NCBI RefSeq assembly: GCF_030268965.1
Contig: NZ_BSSE01000024.1
Span: 1-64,000, forward strand
DNA from: Microtetraspora sp. NBRC 16547
Lineage (GTDB): Bacteria > Actinomycetota > Actinomycetes > Streptosporangiales > Streptosporangiaceae
Length of the DNA: 64,000 nt
Direction: 5' to 3'
Shown one piece after another: positions 3,391 through 17,212 of this stretch. The notes under the pieces are model-generated. The model was given only the letters and a program-made list of their open reading frames with translations, did no database searches and was not told where the DNA came from. A program made the position numbers and the translations under genes. The first letter of the stretch is position 1, and every line of letters starts with the position of its first letter.

Positions 3391-4753
3391 ATGCGTCGCG
3401 GGAGCCCACGGCGTTGGCCCGGATCCTGGTCACCTGCGCCTCCAGCGCCTCGACGTCGAACGGCACGGCCGAGGCCTCGAACTCCTTGCCCAACGCGTGC
3501 AGCATGTCCATGCCGTCCCAGCTCGCGGTGAACTCGTCGTCGATCGGCTGCATCAGGTCGCCAAGCGCGTCCTCAGCTCGGTTACGCATCACGAGGATCC
3601 GCCACTGCCCGAGGAACCGGCGGAACTCGGCCAGCCGCTCGCCCGCCTCGGCGACAGCGGAGACGACCTCGCGCAGCGCCTGATTCACCTGCTGCGCCCT
3701 GGTCGACATCTCCAGCACGCTCTCATGTACGGCATCGCACAGCAGGGGCACCTCGCTCAGCGAGGTCGGCGGCGCGATGCCGTCCACGACCTCGGCGGCG
3801 AACGCGGCGACCATGTCGTTGTGCAAGCTGGCCAGCGCGATCCGGAACCGCAGGTCCGTGACGTACGAGCGCAGCGCGGCGAGCCTGGGGACCAGCTGCT
3901 CCAGCGTGGCCACAGCGGTGCGGGTCGGCGCGGCCATCACCCGGGCGACGTTGTGCAGCACCGGCGCGGTGTCGGCGACCCTCGCGGAGGCGGTCTGGGC
4001 GCTGGTGACCGTGCGGTCGAGCCGGCGGGCGATGTCGAGCACCTGGGTGGACGACGTCATGAGCCGGTCGCTGAAGACCCGGTAACTCTCCAGGCGCTCC
4101 ACCAGGTCGGCGAGCATCGCTTCCAGCGCTCCCGCGCCGGTCAGCACCTCCCCGATCGGTCCCTGGGCCCGGGGCCGCGCGTACGTCGCGGAAGCCAGCC
4201 GGCCGCGCGCCGCGACCTCGGTGGTCAGCGCCTCAGTGAGGAATTCGTCGTGCGAGGCGAACCCGAGCTCGGCCAACAGCAGTTCAAGCTGCTCCATGCC
4301 GAACTGTGCCACCTCGCGGCGGTTCATGCCCTTGCGCTTGACCGCCTCGAGCTCGATGTCGGCCGCGTACTTGTACATCCGCTTGACTTCGTCGAACAGC
4401 TCGGCCTGCGGCGCCATCCGCACCGACAGGAAGCCCTCCGCCGACGGCGTCATCGTGGCGAAAACCCAGTAGGTGCTGCCGTCCTTGGCCCGGTTCTGCA
4501 CGTACGCTCCCGCCGGACGACCGGCAAGCAAGCGGTTCCACATCAGCCGGAAGACGCCGGCCGGCATGTCGGGGTGGCGCACGATGTTGTGCGGAGCCCC
4601 GGTGAGCTCGTCGAGGGAGAACCGGGAGGTCCGGACGAAGACCGAGTTGCCGCTGCGGATCAACCCGCGCCGGTCGGTCGTGGAGAAGAAGAGCTCCTCC
4701 GAACCGATGAACTGCTCGATGCCGCTGGGCACGCTCAACTCGCCAAGGCTCAT
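3386..4753 (-). CDS. Aer-like PAS domain protein with long helical C-terminus
   Basis: A 455-residue protein. Residues about 10-120 form a PAS domain of the aerotaxis (Aer) type, with the signature NSVFVRTSRFSLDELTG, then PHNIVRHPDMP, FRLMWNRLLAG and KDGSTYWVFATMTP. In Aer this fold binds FAD and reports redox or oxygen state. The remaining 330 residues are almost entirely helical, but I see no methyl-accepting signalling hairpin, HAMP, kinase or GGDEF domain. The start at 4753 is preceded by a good GGAGGTG ribosome site. No flagellar or che genes are nearby. It is probably a soluble redox-sensing scaffold with an unknown output partner. Confidence 0.85.
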   Translation of the reverse strand: MSLGELSVPSGIEQFIGSEELFFSTTDRRGLIRSGNSVFVRTSRFSLDELTGAPHNIVRHPDMPAGVFRLMWNRLLAGRPAGAYVQNRAKDGSTYWVFATMTPSAEGFLSVRMAPQAELFDEVKRMYKYAADIELEAVKRKGMNRREVAQFGMEQLELLLAELGFASHDEFLTEALTTEVAARGRLASATYARPRAQGPIGEVLTGAGALEAMLADLVERLESYRVFSDRLMTSSTQVLDIARRLDRTVTSAQTASARVADTAPVLHNVARVMAAPTRTAVATLEQLVPRLAALRSYVTDLRFRIALASLHNDMVAAFAAEVVDGIAPPTSLSEVPLLCDAVHESVLEMSTRAQQVNQALREVVSAVAEAGERLAEFRRFLGQWRILVMRNRAEDALGDLMQPIDDEFTASWDGMDMLHALGKEFEASAVPFDVEALEAQVTRIRANAVGSRDAF

Positions 4754-5198
4754 CGCCCACCTCCCCGATCTGGCGGAGAGACTATCCGGCGGGTGCGGCG
4801 GCCCCTCACGCCGCCTACATGAGCATCGACGACCGGCTCGCGTAGTGCTTCCTGAGCCGAGCGAGGGACATCGGAGCAGGTAGGAGCGGTCGGCGGCCGC
4901 GTACGTGCTCTCAGGTGTCGAGGCGCCCGCACGTCCGAGGCAGGTCTCTTCCGGGTGGCGGACCGGAGCTGTGATCTTCGTCTCGATGGCGGAGAACGAG
5001 GGATCGGCGACCTGGCCGCGGAGGCGCGGAGGGTGTGATCCCTCCGCGCCTGTGCCGGCTGATGCCGTACCGCGAACGTCAGCAGGTCAAGGCCGGTGCC
5101 GTTCCAGCGGTCGGCGTGGTTCACAACGTGCGTCCGGCCGGCCGGTGTCGCCGAAGACATCCCGCTTGACGTCGGGAGGGACGCTCCCGGCGGGCCTC
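4754..5198. other. 445-bp stretch without a recognisable gene
   Basis: No reading frame here has recognisable protein features. The one clear structure is the perfect 11-bp hairpin at 5023-5050, listed separately. The left part is the promoter region of the PAS-protein gene and the right part is the 3' flank of the PRC-barrel gene. Confidence 0.5.
5023..5050 (-). terminator. GC hairpin downstream of PRC-barrel gene
   Basis: An 11-bp perfect stem (GGCGCGGAGGG / CCCTCCGCGCC) with a TGTGAT loop, about 150 nt past the stop codon at 5199. It has no U-run, as is common for actinobacterial terminators. It could also act on the other strand. Confidence 0.4.
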
Positions 5199-5741
5199 CT
5201 AGCGCTTCAGGTACCGGCGCAGGCGCGTGCGCAGCGTCTCCGCCATCCGGCGACCGGCCTCTGCCCCCTCTCGCAGGTGACCGGTCACGCCTGGGGGCGT
5301 GGTCACCCCTGGGCGAGGGGTCGTCCCACCTTCGGGCCGACCGCTCAGGCGCTCGCGTTCCTGCGGGCCACCTGTTTGCGCCCATCCCTGGCCGGGCTGG
5401 TTGGCCTGCTCCCAGGACGTGTCCCAGCTCATGTCGTAATAGCGGAAGAGCTTGCGCTCCTGCTCGACGGACATATGCCCGGCGGCGTCCACGTAGATGT
5501 GGGGAGCGCCGTTGACGCGCTCCTTGTCGTACGGGACCTCCACATGATCTCCGACCAGGTCCGCGTTGCGGATCGGAACGAACGTCTCGGTCGTGCCGAA
5601 CAGCCCGGTCTTCACGCACAGCCACTCCGGCTGCCCGGTGTCGTCGTCGAGGAAGACGTGTTTGACCTCGCCGAGCTTCTGTCCGCCGGTGCCCTCGACC
5701 GGGATGTCCAGTACCTGCGGAATCTGCTCCTGCCTGATCAT
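5199..5741 (-). CDS. PRC-barrel domain protein
   Basis: A 180-residue soluble protein. Residues about 5-85 form a PRC-barrel, with LDIPVEGTGGQKLGEVKHVF, the short DDTGQPEW turn, a strand starting KTGLFG, and VPIRNADLVGDHVEVPYDK. This domain is common in actinobacterial stress-associated proteins and in RimM. A linker containing MSVEQERKLFRYYDMSW follows; the EQERKLFRYY segment is typical of the CsbD-neighbour type of PRC proteins. The tail is Pro/Gly-rich and then basic (RTRLRRYLKR). The start at 5741 has a strong GGAGGAG site. It is monocistronic. The ligand is unknown. Confidence 0.85.
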   Translation of the reverse strand: MIRQEQIPQVLDIPVEGTGGQKLGEVKHVFLDDDTGQPEWLCVKTGLFGTTETFVPIRNADLVGDHVEVPYDKERVNGAPHIYVDAAGHMSVEQERKLFRYYDMSWDTSWEQANQPGQGWAQTGGPQERERLSGRPEGGTTPRPGVTTPPGVTGHLREGAEAGRRMAETLRTRLRRYLKR

Positions 5742-5857
5742 GCTCTCCTCCGTCCTTCGCCGTCTCCCTCGGCCCTACCGCTGGACCTTGAAGGAAAACC
5801 CGATGTACTGGACGAAGCAGCTAGATCTTCTGTTGGCTCATGGTGGCCGTGCGCGTT

Positions 5858-12082: not shown

Positions 12083-12925
12083 ATGGTGGCGATCGTGCTT
12101 CCCGAGCTGCGCTTCGGCGGACTGGCCGTCCCCACCCACGGCTTCTTCGTCGGTCTCGGTGTGGTCCTGGCGGCCGTGGTCTTCGTTCTGGAGGCCCGCC
12201 GCAGGGGCGCGTTGCACGAGGACTCGCTGGTCGCGGTCACCGGAGCGCTTGTAGGCGGCGCGATCGGGATGCGCCTGTCCGGCTGGGCCGAGCACCTGGA
12301 CCCGCGGCTGAACCCCAGCCTCCTCGAAGCGTGGATGTTCGGCTCGCGCAGCATTCTCGGCGGCCTCACCGGAGCCTACGCCGGAGTGCTGATCGCCAAG
12401 CGGATCATCGGCTACCGCGGCAAGACGGGCGACCTGTTCGCCCCCGCCGTCGCGCTCGGCATGGCCGTGGGCCGGATCGGCTGCTTCCTCACCGAGGCGC
12501 CCGGGCGTCCCACGAGTCTTCCCTGGGGCGTGCACGCGCCCGCCTCCGTCCCGGAGTGCCCCGGCTGTCTCGCCGGGCAGGCCATGCATCCGTCCTTCCT
12601 GTACGAGATCGTCTTCCAGCTGGCCGCGTTCTGCGCCCTGCTCTGGGCCCGCGACCGGGTCGACCGGCCGGGCGAGCTGTTCACGCTGTACGTCGGCGCG
12701 TACGCGGTTTTCCGGTTCCTGGTGGAGTTCACCAGGGCGAACGAGACGGTCTGGCTTGATCTGACCCGGCCGCAGTGGTTCCTCGTTCCCGGCCTCGTGC
12801 TCGTCTTCCTCAGACTGCTGTCCGGCTATCGGCGTGGTTATTACGACATGCTGGTACACAAGAGAGACCGCTGGACCTACACGCGACAGGAGGAGGGCGC
12901 CTCCCCGGCCCCGAAGACGCCATGA
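12083..12925 (+). CDS. Lgt-family diacylglyceryl transferase paralogue
   Basis: A 280-residue polytopic protein of the prolipoprotein diacylglyceryl transferase family: about seven membrane segments, the GRIGCF region at 130-135, GRPTSLPWG after it, and the C-terminal FRFLVEFTR block. Two positions considered critical in E. coli Lgt appear changed. Its HGGLIG motif (His103) aligns with LGGLTG here (Leu92), and the Asn of GRxGN is Cys134. The alignment was made by eye. The gene is not beside trp genes, the usual place of the housekeeping lgt, so it is probably a paralogue with another substrate or activity. It heads an operon of four genes, each overlapping the next by 4 bp. Confidence 0.85.
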   Translation: MVAIVLPELRFGGLAVPTHGFFVGLGVVLAAVVFVLEARRRGALHEDSLVAVTGALVGGAIGMRLSGWAEHLDPRLNPSLLEAWMFGSRSILGGLTGAYAGVLIAKRIIGYRGKTGDLFAPAVALGMAVGRIGCFLTEAPGRPTSLPWGVHAPASVPECPGCLAGQAMHPSFLYEIVFQLAAFCALLWARDRVDRPGELFTLYVGAYAVFRFLVEFTRANETVWLDLTRPQWFLVPGLVLVFLRLLSGYRRGYYDMLVHKRDRWTYTRQEEGASPAPKTP

Positions 12926-13425
12926 CGACTCCCCCCGAGCCTCCCGGCGGACCCCAGGACGACCGGGGCCCCGAGCCCGGCCCGCCACAGGGATCCCACG
13001 GACCCGGTTTCCAGGGACCCCAAGGACCTCAAGGACCCCAAGGTCCTCAGGGGCCGTACGGACCGCCGCCGCCCGGCTACGGCTGGCCGCCGCCTCCGCG
13101 GCCGCAGAAGAGCTCCACAGGACTCGTCGTCGGCATGACCTTCGTCGGGTTCGCGATCTTCATAGTGATCAATCTGATGGCCTTCTTGCTGACGCTGGGC
13201 ATCGCGGACGGCATCGGCGACCACAAGACGCTGGTCGTCGGCGTGGCCGCGCTGATCCTGGCGGCCATCGCGCTCGGCGGTGGCGCCGGGCTCATCTTCC
13301 TGCGCAGGCCGTGGAGCAAGGGGCTCGGCCTCGGCCTCATGATCGGCTGGGCGCTCGTCTCGATCGTCTCCGTCGGGTTCTGCACCGGGATCAACCCGGA
13401 AATCTACAGTGGTGGTGTCCTGTGA
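12922..13425 (+). CDS. Pro/Gly/Gln-rich three-TM membrane protein
   Basis: A 167-residue protein whose ATG overlaps the lgt-like stop (ATGA). Residues 1-58 are disordered, with a GPQ repeat run followed by PYGPPPPGYGWPPPPRP. Three hydrophobic helices follow (MTFVGFAIFIVINLMAFLLT; LVVGVAALILAAIALGGGAG; LGLMIGWALVSIVSVGF). It has no catalytic motif. The position between an Lgt paralogue and a radical SAM enzyme suggests a membrane anchor or substrate presenter for them. That is inference. Confidence 0.8.
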   Translation: MTTPPEPPGGPQDDRGPEPGPPQGSHGPGFQGPQGPQGPQGPQGPYGPPPPGYGWPPPPRPQKSSTGLVVGMTFVGFAIFIVINLMAFLLTLGIADGIGDHKTLVVGVAALILAAIALGGGAGLIFLRRPWSKGLGLGLMIGWALVSIVSVGFCTGINPEIYSGGVL

Positions 13426-14987
13426 GCGGAATGCCCCTGCGCGGTGATCGGATCCTGCGCTACGTCAACGCGTTCTGTCCCCGTTGTCACGACGAGCGTC
13501 CGGATCGGCCGCTCGACCAGGTACCCCGGCTCTCGGGCTGGCTGGCCGCCAGGAACGACCGCGTCTACCTGGAGCGCGGCTGCCGTACGCACGGCATGGT
13601 CCGCACGCTGTACGACGAGGATCCGGAGATCCTCGCCTATCTCGAAGAATGGACCGCTCCCACGAAGGCGCACATCCCCGACGTCGCGGGAAACTTCGCC
13701 CCCGTTCCGGAGGCGTACCTGCGGGGGCTCCCCGAGATGCAGACCCAGCACACCTGCATCCTGCTCGAGGACATCGCCGAGACCTGCAATCTCCGCTGCC
13801 CGACCTGCTTCACCGAGTCCTCGCCCGACCTGCGCGGCGTGGTGCCGGTCGAGGAGATCCTGGCCAGTGTGGACCAGCGGCTCGCCCGCGAGAACGGCCG
13901 CATCGACGTCCTCATGTTGAGCGGGGGCGAGCCGACCCTGCACCCCGCGCTGCCCGAGCTGCTCGAACGGCTGGCGTCCCGGCCCATCACCCGCATCCTG
14001 ATCAACACCAACGGCGTCCTCGTGGCCAGGGACGACGCCCTGCTCGACCTCCTGACCGAGCACCGGGAGCGGGTCGAGATCTACCTCCAGTACGACGGAG
14101 TCTCCGCGGAGGCGTCCCGCCACCACCGGGGTGGTGACCTGCGGCGCTTCAAGGAGCAGGCGCTCGAACGGCTCTCCGGGCGAGAGATCTTCACCACGCT
14201 CGTGATGACCGCCGCCCTCGGCGTGAACGACGGCGAGATCGGCGATGTCGTACGGCTGGCGCTCGACACGCCGTACGTCGGCGGGGTGTCGATTCAGCCC
14301 CAGTTCGGGTCGGGCCGCTCCGGGCTGATCGATCCGATGGACCGGCTGACCCACACCGGCGTGCTGAAGCGGCTCGGCCCGCAGACGGACGGCCTGGTCA
14401 CCTGGCGTGACCTGACCGCGTTGCCGTGCTCCCACCCGCACTGCTGCTCGGTCGGCTACATGCTCAAGGACGACGCCGGCAGCTGGCGGTCCCTGACCGC
14501 GCTCATCGGCCACGACCGATTGAAGGAGAACCTCGGCCTGGTCTCCAATCGGATCGCCGACTCGGAGATTCCGCGCGAGCTGCGCCTCGCCGTACAGGAG
14601 TCGCTGCTGGGGTTGCTGTCCGAGCAGTCGTCGCTGTCCCACCCGGAGATCGGCAATGTCTGGCGCGACATCTGCGAGAACTGCGATCTCGGCATGTCCA
14701 CGTTGCTGACCCTCGCGTCGTCGGCGTTGCCCGGCCGTAAGCGACGCCTACGGCGCCTGCTCGGGGAGCGGGTGGTCCGCATCACGGTCAAGCCGTTCAT
14801 GGACATGTCGACCATGATCGAGGAGCGGTTGACCCAGTGCTGCGTGCACGTCGGCACCCGCCCCGACCAGGACCAGTGCGCGCCCTTCTGTGCGGTGCAG
14901 GCGTGGCCGGCGCTCGCCCGCCAGCGCCTGTCCGCGGTCGCCTCGGTCGACTCCGGCGTACGGCTCCCGTTGGTGGAGATCACATGA
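13422..14987 (+). CDS. Radical SAM protein of the MJ0619/tetraether-synthase-like group
   Basis: A 521-residue protein from GTG 13422 (overlapping the previous stop as GTGA; ATG 13431 is an alternative). An N-terminal Cys knuckle, CPRC at 19-22 with a later CRTHG, precedes the radical SAM site CNLRCPTC (Cys122, 126, 129). The glycine-rich SAM motif LSGGEPTLHP follows. Later cysteines (CSHPHCC, CENCD, QCCVHVG, CAPFC) could hold auxiliary iron-sulfur clusters. The length, the N-terminal knuckle and the extra Cys sets match the MJ0619 group, which includes archaeal tetraether synthase (acyl/alkyl chain coupling) and a proposed pterin methylase. The substrate here is unknown. The operon partner is an Lgt paralogue, which points to a lipid substrate. 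Confidence 0.85.
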   Translation: MSGMPLRGDRILRYVNAFCPRCHDERPDRPLDQVPRLSGWLAARNDRVYLERGCRTHGMVRTLYDEDPEILAYLEEWTAPTKAHIPDVAGNFAPVPEAYLRGLPEMQTQHTCILLEDIAETCNLRCPTCFTESSPDLRGVVPVEEILASVDQRLARENGRIDVLMLSGGEPTLHPALPELLERLASRPITRILINTNGVLVARDDALLDLLTEHRERVEIYLQYDGVSAEASRHHRGGDLRRFKEQALERLSGREIFTTLVMTAALGVNDGEIGDVVRLALDTPYVGGVSIQPQFGSGRSGLIDPMDRLTHTGVLKRLGPQTDGLVTWRDLTALPCSHPHCCSVGYMLKDDAGSWRSLTALIGHDRLKENLGLVSNRIADSEIPRELRLAVQESLLGLLSEQSSLSHPEIGNVWRDICENCDLGMSTLLTLASSALPGRKRRLRRLLGERVVRITVKPFMDMSTMIEERLTQCCVHVGTRPDQDQCAPFCAVQAWPALARQRLSAVASVDSGVRLPLVEIT

Positions 14988-15505
14988 GACGGGGAGAGAC
15001 GCCGGACGAGCCGAAGCCGCCGCTGATCGGGGTGGTCTACCAGGAGGCGCTCGCGGCGCAGGCAGCCGCGGCGGACAGATCGATGACAAACGAATCTACG
15101 ACAAACGAATCTACGACGAACGGATCTACGACGAACGGATCGACGCGCGACGGGTACGCGACCAGCGGGTCCTCGAGGCCCGGGTCATCCGCTTACGGAT
15201 CCCCGAGCGGGTCCGCGAGCGGATCCGGGCCCTACGGAGGAGGCCGGAGGGGGCCGGTCGGCGCGCCGCCGTTCGATCCGTTGCGGCTCTGCGTCTACGC
15301 GACCGTGGCCCTGCTGGGCTGGCTGCTGGGCCCGTTGGCGGTGATCGGGTTCGCCGCCGTCGGGTTCGTGGGGTACGTCCGGGCCCGCCGGGCGGGGCTT
15401 GTCCGGAGCAAGTGCCTGCTGCGCGACACGCGGCTGGTTCTGGCCTACCTCGCCCTCATCGTCGTCGCCGCGACCGCCGCCCTCGTCCTGCGGTTCTTCG
15501 GCTGA
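14984..15505 (+). CDS. Two-TM protein with Ser/Thr/Asn repeat, last gene of lgt-like operon
   Basis: A 173-residue protein starting at ATG 14984, overlapping the radical SAM stop (ATGA). The N-terminal 30 residues are conserved-looking (LIGVVYQEALAAQ). A low-complexity run of ESTTN/GSTTN units follows, then a Gly/Ser-rich stretch. The C-terminal half holds two or three hydrophobic helices (LCVYATVALLGWLLGPLAVIG; LVLAYLALIVVAATAALVL). The stop codon lies only 6 bp from the IS605 right end at 15511, so the native 3' end may have been affected by that insertion. The function is unknown. Confidence 0.75.
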   Translation: MRRGETPDEPKPPLIGVVYQEALAAQAAAADRSMTNESTTNESTTNGSTTNGSTRDGYATSGSSRPGSSAYGSPSGSASGSGPYGGGRRGPVGAPPFDPLRLCVYATVALLGWLLGPLAVIGFAAVGFVGYVRARRAGLVRSKCLLRDTRLVLAYLALIVVAATAALVLRFFG

Positions 15506-15572: not shown

Positions 15573-16733
15573 TCAGGCCGCGTCGTCGGCAGCGTGACTC
15601 ACTGCCCAGCCCGTGACACCGCGCGAGGCGATGTTGCGGGCCGCGTTGACGTCGGCGTGCTCAGCGAAGCCGCACGACGTACAGGAGAAGGTTGCCTGGC
15701 CCGGCCGGTTGGCCTTGTCCACATGCCCGCAGGCCGAGCAGGTTTGGGAGGTGTAGGCCGGATCGATGTGGATCACGGCGACCCCGTGCCGGGCCGCCTT
15801 GTAGGCGATGAAGCTCCCCAACTGGTGGAAACTCCAGGAGTGCAGCGTGACCCGCTGGGGCTTGCGGAGCCGTACCCGGTCACGGATGCCGCCCAGGTCT
15901 TCCAGGGCGATGCCGCGTCCGGTGCGTTCTGCCTCGGTCACGATGCGTTTGGCGATGCGGTGATTGGTATCGGCGGCGAACCGCGCCTCCTTGCGGCGGC
16001 GCTTCTTCAGCAGCCGTTTGGCGGACCTGGTGGCCTTGGCCTGCAACCGGCGGCGCAGCTCCCGGTTGCGGTGGCGGACCGCGTTCAGGCCCTTACCGCA
16101 GTGGCGGGCGCCGTCACTGGTGGTGGCAATGTTGGCGATGCCCAGATCCACCCCTATGAAGGCGTCGGGTTCGGCGACCGGAACATCGGGGATCTCGCAG
16201 GTCGCGTACAGGAACCACATGCCGTCCCGGCAGACCAGGTCGGACTCGCCCTTCCGGTACAAGGCGAGCGTCTTGAGCTGGTCGGCCGACCCGGTGAACG
16301 CGACATTCTTCAACCGGCCGGCCGTGGTCCAGATCGACACCATGCGCGCGTCGATCTGCCAGGACAGGCAGCGGTCATCGAACGACTGCGCGGCACCGGC
16401 GCGGAAGACGATCGGTTTACTCTCGGCCCGCGCGCGGCGCCGGGAGCCTTCCGGTCCCAGGTTCCCGGCCCGGATGTTGGCTTTCAGTGTGGTGTAGGCG
16501 TCGGCGACCTTCTTGATCACATGCTGGGCGGCCTGCGCCCCCAACCCGCGCGCTTTCACCTCGCGATAGGTGTGCTTGCGCAGCGCGTACTCGCGCCGGT
16601 CCCCGGTCGTGAACGCGGTCGCCGAGGCGAAGTTCGCGGCGTCGTTGCAGGCGCGCAGGGTCGCCTCCAACGACGCCGCCTGCTCGGGCGTCGGCCGCAG
16701 CCTCACCTGCACCACCAGCTTCACATCGAACAC
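15573..16733 (-). CDS. tnpB: TnpB RNA-guided nuclease / IS605 OrfB
   Basis: About 386 residues from GTG 16733. An N-terminal OrfB helix-turn-helix-like domain precedes a RuvC nuclease with all three acids: Asp in FIGVDLGIAN, Glu in ALEDLGGIR and Asp in HADVNAARNI. The zinc ribbon CSAC / CTSC lies between the last two. Basic helices (RNRELRRRLQAK; RLLKKRRRKEARF) are typical. In characterised homologues TnpB uses an RNA from the element's right end to cut DNA next to a short target motif, which helps retain the IS. Nothing visible disables it. It is divergent from tnpA. Confidence 0.93.
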   Translation of the reverse strand: MFDVKLVVQVRLRPTPEQAASLEATLRACNDAANFASATAFTTGDRREYALRKHTYREVKARGLGAQAAQHVIKKVADAYTTLKANIRAGNLGPEGSRRRARAESKPIVFRAGAAQSFDDRCLSWQIDARMVSIWTTAGRLKNVAFTGSADQLKTLALYRKGESDLVCRDGMWFLYATCEIPDVPVAEPDAFIGVDLGIANIATTSDGARHCGKGLNAVRHRNRELRRRLQAKATRSAKRLLKKRRRKEARFAADTNHRIAKRIVTEAERTGRGIALEDLGGIRDRVRLRKPQRVTLHSWSFHQLGSFIAYKAARHGVAVIHIDPAYTSQTCSACGHVDKANRPGQATFSCTSCGFAEHADVNAARNIASRGVTGWAVSHAADDAA

Positions 16734-16759
16734 ATTATCGGCTGGTGCGCGTCGCCGTG

Positions 16760-17212
16760 ATGGAAACCGAAACCGGATATCCGCCAAGGTCACAGCGTGG
16801 TCCACAGGTCTACAGCCTCCACGCGCATTCGGTCTTCCCCACCACGTACCGGCGTGGTGTGTTCACGGGCGAACTCCTGTCACGCTGCGAGGAGATCATG
16901 ATCGAGGTGTGCGACAGTTTCGGAGCGGAGCTGCGCGAGTTCAACGGCGACAGCGACCACGTGCATCTACTGGTGTTCTACACGCCCAAGGTGGCCCTGT
17001 CCGCCCTGGTCAACTCCCTCAAGGGCGTCTCGGCACGCCTGCTGCGCAAGGAGTTCCCCAGCCACGTCCGCAAGTATCTGTGGGGCGGGCACTTCTGGCC
17101 TCCGTCCTACTTCGCCGCCTTCTGTGGCGGTGCCCGCCGAGACGGCAGACTCAGTCGGCTGCCGCTGTCGATCATCAGGAAGTACATCGAGAACCAGAAA
17201 CGCCCGGACTAG
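16760..17212 (+). CDS. tnpA: IS200/IS605 Y1 transposase TnpA
   Basis: About 150 residues from ATG 16760 (GTG 16745 also possible). The HUH motif is DHVHLLV and the catalytic Tyr lies in SIIRKYIENQ near the C-terminus, as in Y1 single-strand transposases. SLHAHSVFPTTYRRGVF and the helix ending GVSARLLRKEF fit the family, and the length is normal. It excises and inserts the element as single-stranded DNA. Its start faces that of tnpB with fewer than 30 bp between. It appears intact. Confidence 0.93.
   Translation: METETGYPPRSQRGPQVYSLHAHSVFPTTYRRGVFTGELLSRCEEIMIEVCDSFGAELREFNGDSDHVHLLVFYTPKVALSALVNSLKGVSARLLRKEFPSHVRKYLWGGHFWPPSYFAAFCGGARRDGRLSRLPLSIIRKYIENQKRPD

Follow-up and report, generated by a model that had tools for sequence, protein, structure and literature searches.

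A cassette of four genes, in which a paralogue of the prolipoprotein diacylglyceryl transferase Lgt (Lgt') is paired with a radical S-adenosylmethionine (SAM) protein (rSAM) of the tetraether synthase (Tes) superfamily, was found in Microtetraspora sp. NBRC 16547. It lies at 12083-15505 of the window analysed, which comprises positions 1-64,000 of the forward strand of contig NZ_BSSE01000024.1, and its open reading frames, for Lgt', a small membrane protein (TM2), rSAM and another such protein (TM4), are co-directional on the + strand with a 4-bp ATGA/GTGA overlap at each junction (Table 1). The two enzymes stay together across genera, Lgt' has a residue signature of its own, rSAM models with the fold of Tes, and TM2 ends in a conserved motif with a single Cys. 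It is tentatively proposed, at a chance put a little below even, that acyl tails are the substrate of rSAM, which alters them, and that a diacylglyceryl group is passed by Lgt' to TM2 or to a similar acceptor.

Co-occurrence, gene order and mobility

Among 60 related genomes, a full rSAM orthologue was found in 9 (72-100% identity) and remnants in one (G029), and Lgt' at ≥50% identity was found in exactly those 10 of 60, matches elsewhere reaching at most 39%. In a scan of named genomes, the best 80 of 311 rSAM relatives were examined; these include Microtetraspora, Microbispora, Planomonospora, Nonomuraea, Nocardia, Mycobacterium and others. Lgt' adjoins rSAM in 79 of the 80 loci, that is, in 79 of 79 informative ones, as the contig of the remaining locus (L036) begins 452 bases before rSAM, so that a chance pairing is excluded. 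A survey of the phylum over 396 genomes gave 10 with an rSAM match of at least 400 bits, the window's own included, and Lgt' was present in 8/8 loci examined. Cassette rSAM was also found in 37 of the 148 genomes of the genus of G043, which we infer to be mycobacterial from shared neighbours and from a G578 match with coordinates near those of the M. branderi plasmid copy. No match to the Lgt paralogue was found in any of the 17 loci of other rSAM paralogues (L027-L031, L144-L155), several of which are short contigs. In G029, remnants of all four cassette genes lie at 4255-5810 of locus L032, where rSAM keeps both ends without most of its middle.

These results bear out an earlier note on this DNA, made from the letters alone, in three respects: its four genes with 4-bp overlaps (Lgt-like, membrane, radical SAM, membrane) agree with the coordinates and the Pfam matches, the neighbourhood survey it proposed finds rSAM with Lgt' in all 79 informative loci, and the same 10 of 60 genomes hold both, one of them as remnants. 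Its four-gene order stands in part, since the pairing of Lgt' with rSAM is conserved but the order varies, TM4 is often absent, and TM2 is not always between the pair; TM2-Lgt-rSAM-TM4 is the order in Nonomuraea and a few others.

The neighbours of the cassette, compared in 31 loci, differ between lineages and are common within some, and a fixed genomic context was therefore rejected. On the mycobacterial plasmids pS2b (L172) and pJCM12687 (L173), Lgt', two proteins with the TM2 motif and rSAM were found; the records go no further than naming a prolipoprotein diacylglyceryl transferase family protein, a radical SAM protein and hypothetical proteins. A cassette match with the TM2 motif also lies on an 11.9-Mb record of N. 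gerenzanensis, filed as a plasmid and probably the chromosome. Because contexts vary and plasmids carry the cassette, no other local gene seems needed, and the cassette looks self-contained and mobile.

Several features were observed next to the cassettes. In the window, a pair of the IS200/IS605 type lies at 15573-17212, directly downstream of TM4, with a TnpB-like gene on the - strand and a Y1 transposase gene on the + strand (Pfam), and on pJCM12687 an IS200/IS605 transposase and TnpB pair follows rSAM. Two distant cassettes (L139, L140) are near a molybdopterin oxidoreductase-like gene and have a DUF6855-like gene after TM4, Pfam having been run on that of L139.

Table 1. Coordinates of the cassette genes and their conserved sites in the window.
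Feature	Position	Strand	Description
Lgt paralogue (Lgt')	12083-12925	+	280 aa; Pfam LGT 118.8 bits
Lgt' His19 (E. coli Lgt Y26)	12137-12139	+	H in 89/90, the other not aligned; Y in 17/17 ordinary actinobacterial Lgt
Lgt' Leu92 (E. coli H103)	12356-12358	+	L in 86/90, I in 4/90; W in 17/17 ordinary actinobacterial Lgt
Lgt' Arg131 (E. coli R143) and Cys134 (N146)	12473-12484	+	R in 90/90, C in 90/90; ordinary Lgt R and N in 17/17
Lgt' Arg211 (E. coli R239)	12713-12715	+	R in 90/90
TM2, small membrane protein	12922-13425	+	167 aa; Pro-rich N-terminus, three hydrophobic segments, one Cys
TM2 C-terminal motif	13303-13422	+	positive turn, hydrophobic helix, Cys154, TGINPEIY tail
Tes-superfamily radical SAM protein (rSAM)	13422-14987	+	521 aa, GTG start; matched by 7tol, Foldseek and VIA-align
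rSAM rubredoxin-like site C19, C22, C54, H57	13476-13592	+	13/13 Lgt-linked; matches the Tes CX2C...CX2H iron site
rSAM radical SAM motif CX3CX2C, C122/C126/C129	13785-13808	+	kept in orthologue alignments
rSAM CSHPHCC motif, C336/C341/C342	14427-14447	+	rSAM alignment
rSAM CX2C, C418/C421	14673-14684	+	rSAM alignment
rSAM C-terminal auxiliary-cluster region C473, C474, C486, C490	14838-14891	+	C473/C474/C490 align with Tes Cys
TM4, second small membrane protein	14984-15505	+	variable Ser/Thr/Asn-rich N-terminus; conserved membrane core DPLRLC...SKCLLRDTRLVLAYL

The Lgt paralogue

Three Lgt genes are carried by this genome, of which Lgt' is the weakest Pfam match, with 118.8 bits (E 3e-34) to the Lgt family PF01790 against a gathering score of 24.9; it falls under the cut-off of every NCBIfam lgt model listed, for example TIGR00544 (90.8 versus 118.9). 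A tree split 17 Lgt' from 17 ordinary Lgt sequences at 100/100, and this branch, together with the Pfam score, upholds the view of the first gene as an Lgt paralogue.

Residues were counted in 90 Lgt' sequences from 91 loci (none in L036), in which at least three repeats (L022/L046 and L023/L064, each pair on contigs of equal length, and L089/L091, both N. lactucae) were kept; the genome sets used for the cassette loci overlap. According to the available passages of PMC13251419, Y26, H103, R143, N146, G154 and R239 are required in E. coli Lgt, and H103 is W in actinobacterial Lgt. Judged at Y26, H103, R143, N146 and R239, Lgt' keeps R143 and R239 and has the other three replaced, H103 being missing from ordinary actinobacterial Lgt as well. 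The equivalents of R143, R239, E243, Y235 and R246 are kept in 90/90 Lgt', and the signature around GCFLTEAPGR is altered. Compared with canonical Lgt (E. coli 5azb/5azc; actinobacterial), Lgt' thus shares family membership and the equivalents of R143, R239, E243 and R246, but differs in Y26H, in L or I for H103 (W in actinobacteria), in N146C and in its own branch. By these residues, the site seems unimpaired on the side that handles phosphatidylglycerol and is uniformly remodelled elsewhere, a pattern that speaks for a new specificity rather than decay.

A relative of Lgt' may already be on record. In M. wolinskyi (L074), the cassette lies upstream of genes for a DUF1942 protein, Ppx-GppA, DUF501 and enolase. 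In M. smegmatis, enolase is presumably numbered just after MSMEG_5408, which would then probably occupy the same locus. MSMEG_5408, the second Lgt homologue of that species, is probably a member of the Lgt' group and resembles Lgt' in carrying Y26H and N146C, as given in passages of PMC13251419.

Selection was estimated from the ratio of nonsynonymous to synonymous substitution rates (dN/dS) against three close species (two for Lgt'), which is 0.10-0.14 for Lgt' and rSAM, a sign of purifying selection, and 0.39-0.57 for both small membrane proteins (0.47-0.57 for TM2 alone). This bears on an ordinary explanation, in which Lgt' would be a redundant or failing Lgt, rSAM an enzyme of the MJ0619 type with a soluble substrate, and the two neighbours by shared ancestry only. 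For it counts the pterin-methylating role that was reportedly assigned to MJ0619 earlier. The presumed low Lgt activity of MSMEG_5408 (PMC13251419, available passages) points the same way. Very improbable as a whole, this explanation is opposed by the co-occurrence of the pair across genera despite changing surroundings and gene order, by the low dN/dS of both genes, and by active-site changes in Lgt' that are fixed, not scattered.

The radical SAM protein and its relation to Tes

The closest solved structure to rSAM by sequence is Tes, also known as GDGT-MAS (MJ0619; 7tol, E 4.3e-30, residues 36-493). The CX3CX2C motif lies within the PF04055 domain (Radical_SAM 73.2 bits, E 4e-20), which places rSAM in the radical SAM superfamily, and an N-terminal zinc ribbon (Pfam HMPTM, 37.8 bits, E 1e-9) corresponds to the 'CPRC' set of the earlier note. 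An AlphaFold2 model was built from 43 orthologues, with a mean predicted local distance difference test (pLDDT) score of 60 and a predicted template modelling (pTM) score of 0.68. Foldseek placed 7tol (E 5.6e-21) and 7tom (8.0e-21) on top, the next match being 1.7e-6, and VIA-align against Tes gave Z 24.6 with 396 residues aligned at 4.8 A, the next being MoaA at Z 14.9. The overall Tes fold is thus predicted for rSAM from a model of mean pLDDT 60. No entry named Mss or TrsS was among the Foldseek or VIA-align fold matches. Two other identities were rejected. For an anti-phage viperin, the best match was weak (E 4e-9) and covered the radical SAM core only, with viperin folds at Z ≤12.7; peptide-acting radical SAM enzymes reached Z ≤14.1 over ~220 residues, far under Tes, and were rejected as a fold identity.

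In the NCBIfam collection, rSAM scores 145.6 bits with the Tes model NF045702, below its cut-off of 450, and two distant Lgt-linked orthologues are likewise under it (142.8 and 150.5 bits). The highest-scoring model is that of the TrsS radical SAM (seleno)protein (NF045646), yet its 187.2 bits over residues 36-492 are also below the cut-off of 490. Eight other paralogues scored under both cut-offs too, mostly nearer them than the Lgt-linked rSAM. In the available part of PMC13188914, TrsS is only listed in a selenoprotein table. The kinship with Tes and MJ0619 stated in the earlier note agrees with NCBIfam, 7tol, Foldseek and VIA-align alike, and the nearest solved protein is Tes rather than an unrelated family with a soluble substrate, the finding that the note had named as speaking against its idea.

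The residues of rSAM were aligned over 13 Lgt-linked sequences, 17 paralogues and the Tes of Methanocaldococcus (7tol, 7tom), the only Tes compared. Passages of PMC9433317 describe in Tes a rubredoxin-like CX2C/CX2H iron site, an N-terminal [4Fe-4S] cluster on C73/C77/C80 and a His, the radical SAM cluster, and a C-terminal [4Fe-4S] cluster that carries a labile Met439; Met439 and Tyr459 are completely conserved across 1000 archaeal Tes homologues. In common with Tes, rSAM has the full-length sequence and fold, the rubredoxin-like site, the radical SAM motif and three Cys of the C-terminal cluster region, and this motif and the CC...PFC cysteines are kept throughout the Lgt-linked set. Four of the five contacts to SAM or 5'-deoxyadenosine that the available text names for Tes are also kept (F130, R236, Q292 and R299), the Ser being F295. 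In contrast to Tes, rSAM is without the N-terminal cluster Cys, has K for Met439 and V for Tyr459, adds C336, C418, C421 and C486, and is bacterial and tied to Lgt'. By its sequence, rSAM is a full-length Tes homologue, yet not a Tes, and the Tes reaction cannot be assumed for it since signature residues and the ligands of one cluster are missing. The idea of the earlier note that the genes build or alter a membrane lipid or a lipid-bearing protein, through radical C-C bond formation or methylation, is treated here as a hypothesis.

The extra cysteine sets claimed for rSAM in the earlier note were found again in the 43 orthologues, in which 15 Cys are invariant and C418 nearly so. C336 is present in 13/13 Lgt-linked sequences and 16/17 paralogues and is Ser in Tes; C341 is in 13/13 and 17/17, and a Tes Cys aligns there after an insertion; C418 and C421 are both in 13/13, as compared with 12/17 and 13/17 of the paralogues, and Tes is without Cys there. 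C486 is specific to the Lgt-linked set (13/13 versus 0/17). C336, C341, C418 and C421 (14427-14684) form a set common to most bacterial paralogues, of which a Tes Cys aligns at C341 only, and the bacterial branch may hold an additional metal site there.

In a tree of 31 rows, covering neither Mss nor TrsS and leaving out L153 (a paralogue of <400 aa), a 100/100 branch with a very long stem sets the 13 Lgt-linked rSAMs apart; Tes and two of the paralogues have long branches, and relations outside the Lgt-linked group are uncertain. On this tree the Lgt-linked rSAMs are a separate, well-supported subfamily. Two insertions were observed: one of ~70 residues in the rSAM of the distant cassette L143 (7999-9807), where window residue 351 would fall, and one of tandem repeats of ~18 residues (ARSASVEGGGGRRAEEAA) after the radical SAM motif of a Tes-family paralogue without Lgt (L030, 7771-9597).

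Another bacterial enzyme, the membrane-spanning lipid synthase Mss, is described in passages of PMC13274423 as resembling Tes, in its models, in catalytic architecture and in the way it binds lipids, and is proposed to act on lipids of the phosphatidylglycerol type. Mss is likened to rSAM here through that description, by way of Tes, and Lgt goes unmentioned for Mss in those passages. No description of Lgt' paired with a Tes-type rSAM was found in the open-licence literature, in agreement with the earlier note, which knew of no such bacterial pathway. The enzymes appear to be new variants of known families, and their joint pathway appears undescribed.

The action of Tes on lipids (PMC9433317, in part) and the proposed action of Mss favour an explanation confined to lipids, in which Lgt' and rSAM would act in turn on free phospholipid to give a novel, perhaps membrane-spanning or cross-linked, lipid, with TM2 and TM4 as scaffolds and no protein lipidated. 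It would also agree with the phosphatidylglycerol-handling residues retained in Lgt' and with a core of Lgt' and rSAM, as TM2 and TM4 can be missing at a locus. The conservation of the Cys-containing C-terminus of TM2 is left unexplained by it, and it is considered rather unlikely, although the likeliest of the rivals.

The small membrane proteins and the proposed pathway

Nothing above cut-off was found in Pfam for TM2 or TM4, nor any NCBIfam match for TM4. TM2 shows hydropathy peaks at 74-92, 104-122 and 135-153, the last preceded by RRPWSKG and directly followed by Cys154, the sole Cys. An AlphaFold2 model (mean pLDDT 78, pTM 0.56) gives two long helices, 66-126 and 130-163. TM2 is variable except at its C-terminus, which consists of a K/R-rich turn, GLGLMIGWALxSIxSxGF, the Cys and TGxNPxxY, with the stop codon only a few residues further on. 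A pattern search found the motif in 78 of the 80 loci (92 copies; L075 and L103 missed), where the pattern itself requires a Cys and so shows the presence of the motif, not the rate of Cys loss; a looser filter gave 99 segments from 77 loci, out-of-frame noise included. When no Cys was demanded, it was in register in 19 of 20 aligned copies from 18 genomes.

A normal lipobox has a small residue at -1 of its Cys. In the window this residue is F (G-F-C), and elsewhere mostly F, I, Y, W or L; S or A was found there in two distant small cassette proteins. The end of TM2, with its charged turn, helix and Cys, is by its sequence the layout of a lipoprotein signal at the wrong end of the protein. In four other lineages (L025, L026, L141 and L143), proteins of 70-110 aa have little in common except a single Cys at the end of the last hydrophobic stretch, 7-10 residues from the C-terminus; that of L143 precedes Lgt' and bears DUF2510, being the sole small membrane protein over the Pfam cut-off.

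That ~35 residues at the C-terminus are conserved while the rest of TM2 varies, and that two copies are at times present, would also suit the maturation of a peptide, in which rSAM modifies the C-terminus or helix of TM2 in the manner of ribosomally synthesized and post-translationally modified peptides, and Lgt' lipidates the same peptide, so that the radical chemistry falls on protein. The peptide-acting enzymes SuiB and SkfB come up among the fold matches of rSAM that follow Tes, far weaker at Z 13.4-14.1, while Tes is the best by a wide margin. The TM2 motif is predicted to lie within the membrane or beyond it, at a distance from any enzyme of the cytosol, and in four distant loci Lgt' and rSAM have no TM2 between them, all of which make peptide maturation distinctly unlikely.

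TM4 was sought in 19 genomes, 18 of them chosen because TM4 had not been seen beside rSAM; it was unmatched at E 1e-5 in 18 of the 19, although a diverged copy could escape, and the one match was a positive control. TM4 was accordingly rejected as an essential part. Its N-terminus (15084-15145 in the window) has short Ser/Thr/Asn repeats that differ between species.

Returning to the alteration of acyl tails by rSAM and transfer by Lgt', the cassette would be a self-contained unit that builds a modified diacylglyceryl group and installs it at the membrane; both reactions, their order, the acceptor, the docking and the topology are those that we infer. In the first step, soluble rSAM with its Tes fold would dock at the inner face of the membrane, perhaps via TM4, and its tunnel would admit one acyl tail, or two, from a phospholipid of the membrane, upon which the 5'-deoxyadenosyl radical and the C-terminal auxiliary Fe-S cluster would functionalise an unactivated C-H, most likely by tail-to-tail C-C coupling as in Tes. 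In the second step, Lgt' would act at the outer face and pass a diacylglyceryl group to an acceptor of a non-standard kind, for which the single Cys at the outer end of the last helix of TM2 is the most plausible candidate. The main reason for this proposal is that a changed acceptor site in Lgt' adjoins a Cys in a changed lipobox; the G-F-C context of TM2, without a small -1 residue, would fit a transferase with such a site. Also in its favour are the co-occurrence, the 100/100 subfamily, Tes as the closest solved protein, the four of five SAM and 5'-deoxyadenosine residues, the H/L/C signature of Lgt' with the phosphatidylglycerol arginines kept, the Y26H and N146C reported for MSMEG_5408, the Cys-containing C-terminus as the conserved part of TM2, the single Cys of the small proteins in four distant cassettes, and the varied contexts and plasmid carriage of the cassette.

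Several findings weigh against this proposal. The Cys for N146 is not unique to the Lgt' group, for a distant Lgt may carry it, as does that of L. interrogans, which is partly functional in E. coli, and the presumed low activity of MSMEG_5408 counts here as well (both in passages of PMC13251419). All three cysteines of the N-terminal cluster (Tes C73, C77, C80), found in 17/17 paralogues and in Tes, are present in 0/13 Lgt-linked rSAMs. Met439 of Tes is replaced by K457, invariant in the 43 orthologues and in 13/13 of the diverse Lgt-linked set, and Tyr459 by V477, invariant in the 43 and kept in 12/13 (A in L142). As the M439A variant of Tes retains activity (PMC9433317, available passages), K457 alone does not exclude Tes-like chemistry. 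The mean pLDDT of 60 is too low for tunnel or cluster geometry in rSAM. In the model of TM2, the last helix extends beyond Cys154 to 163, so that the Cys need not end the helix, and Cys154 would face outward by the positive-inside rule, judged from charge distribution alone. In L082, L098, L111 and L112, second copies of TM2 are present whose Cys is out of register and whose end lacks TGxNP. The distant loci L139, L140, L142 and L156 have no TM2-like gene between Lgt' and rSAM, and for these an unlinked TM2 copy or another acceptor must be assumed.

In the most specific form of the proposal, the product of a dedicated actinobacterial pathway would be a diacylglyceryl anchor modified by radical chemistry, which may be C-C coupled or span the membrane, on a Cys at the C-terminal end of a small membrane protein. 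Such a lipoprotein in reverse would be made by a matched Tes-superfamily enzyme and a re-specialised Lgt; this form is regarded as unlikely. Tes joins two unactivated lipid carbons in a reaction that, according to those who discovered it, has not been observed anywhere else in nature; they also noted Tes homologues in bacteria that are not known producers of these lipids (passages of PMC9433317). With its constant partner, its candidate acceptor protein and hosts that include mycobacteria, the subfamily makes the question of what these bacterial homologues do directly testable. The cassette points to an undescribed way to make or attach a modified membrane lipid, and in aerobic actinobacteria it may bring to light a lipid, or a type of protein lipidation, that is new.

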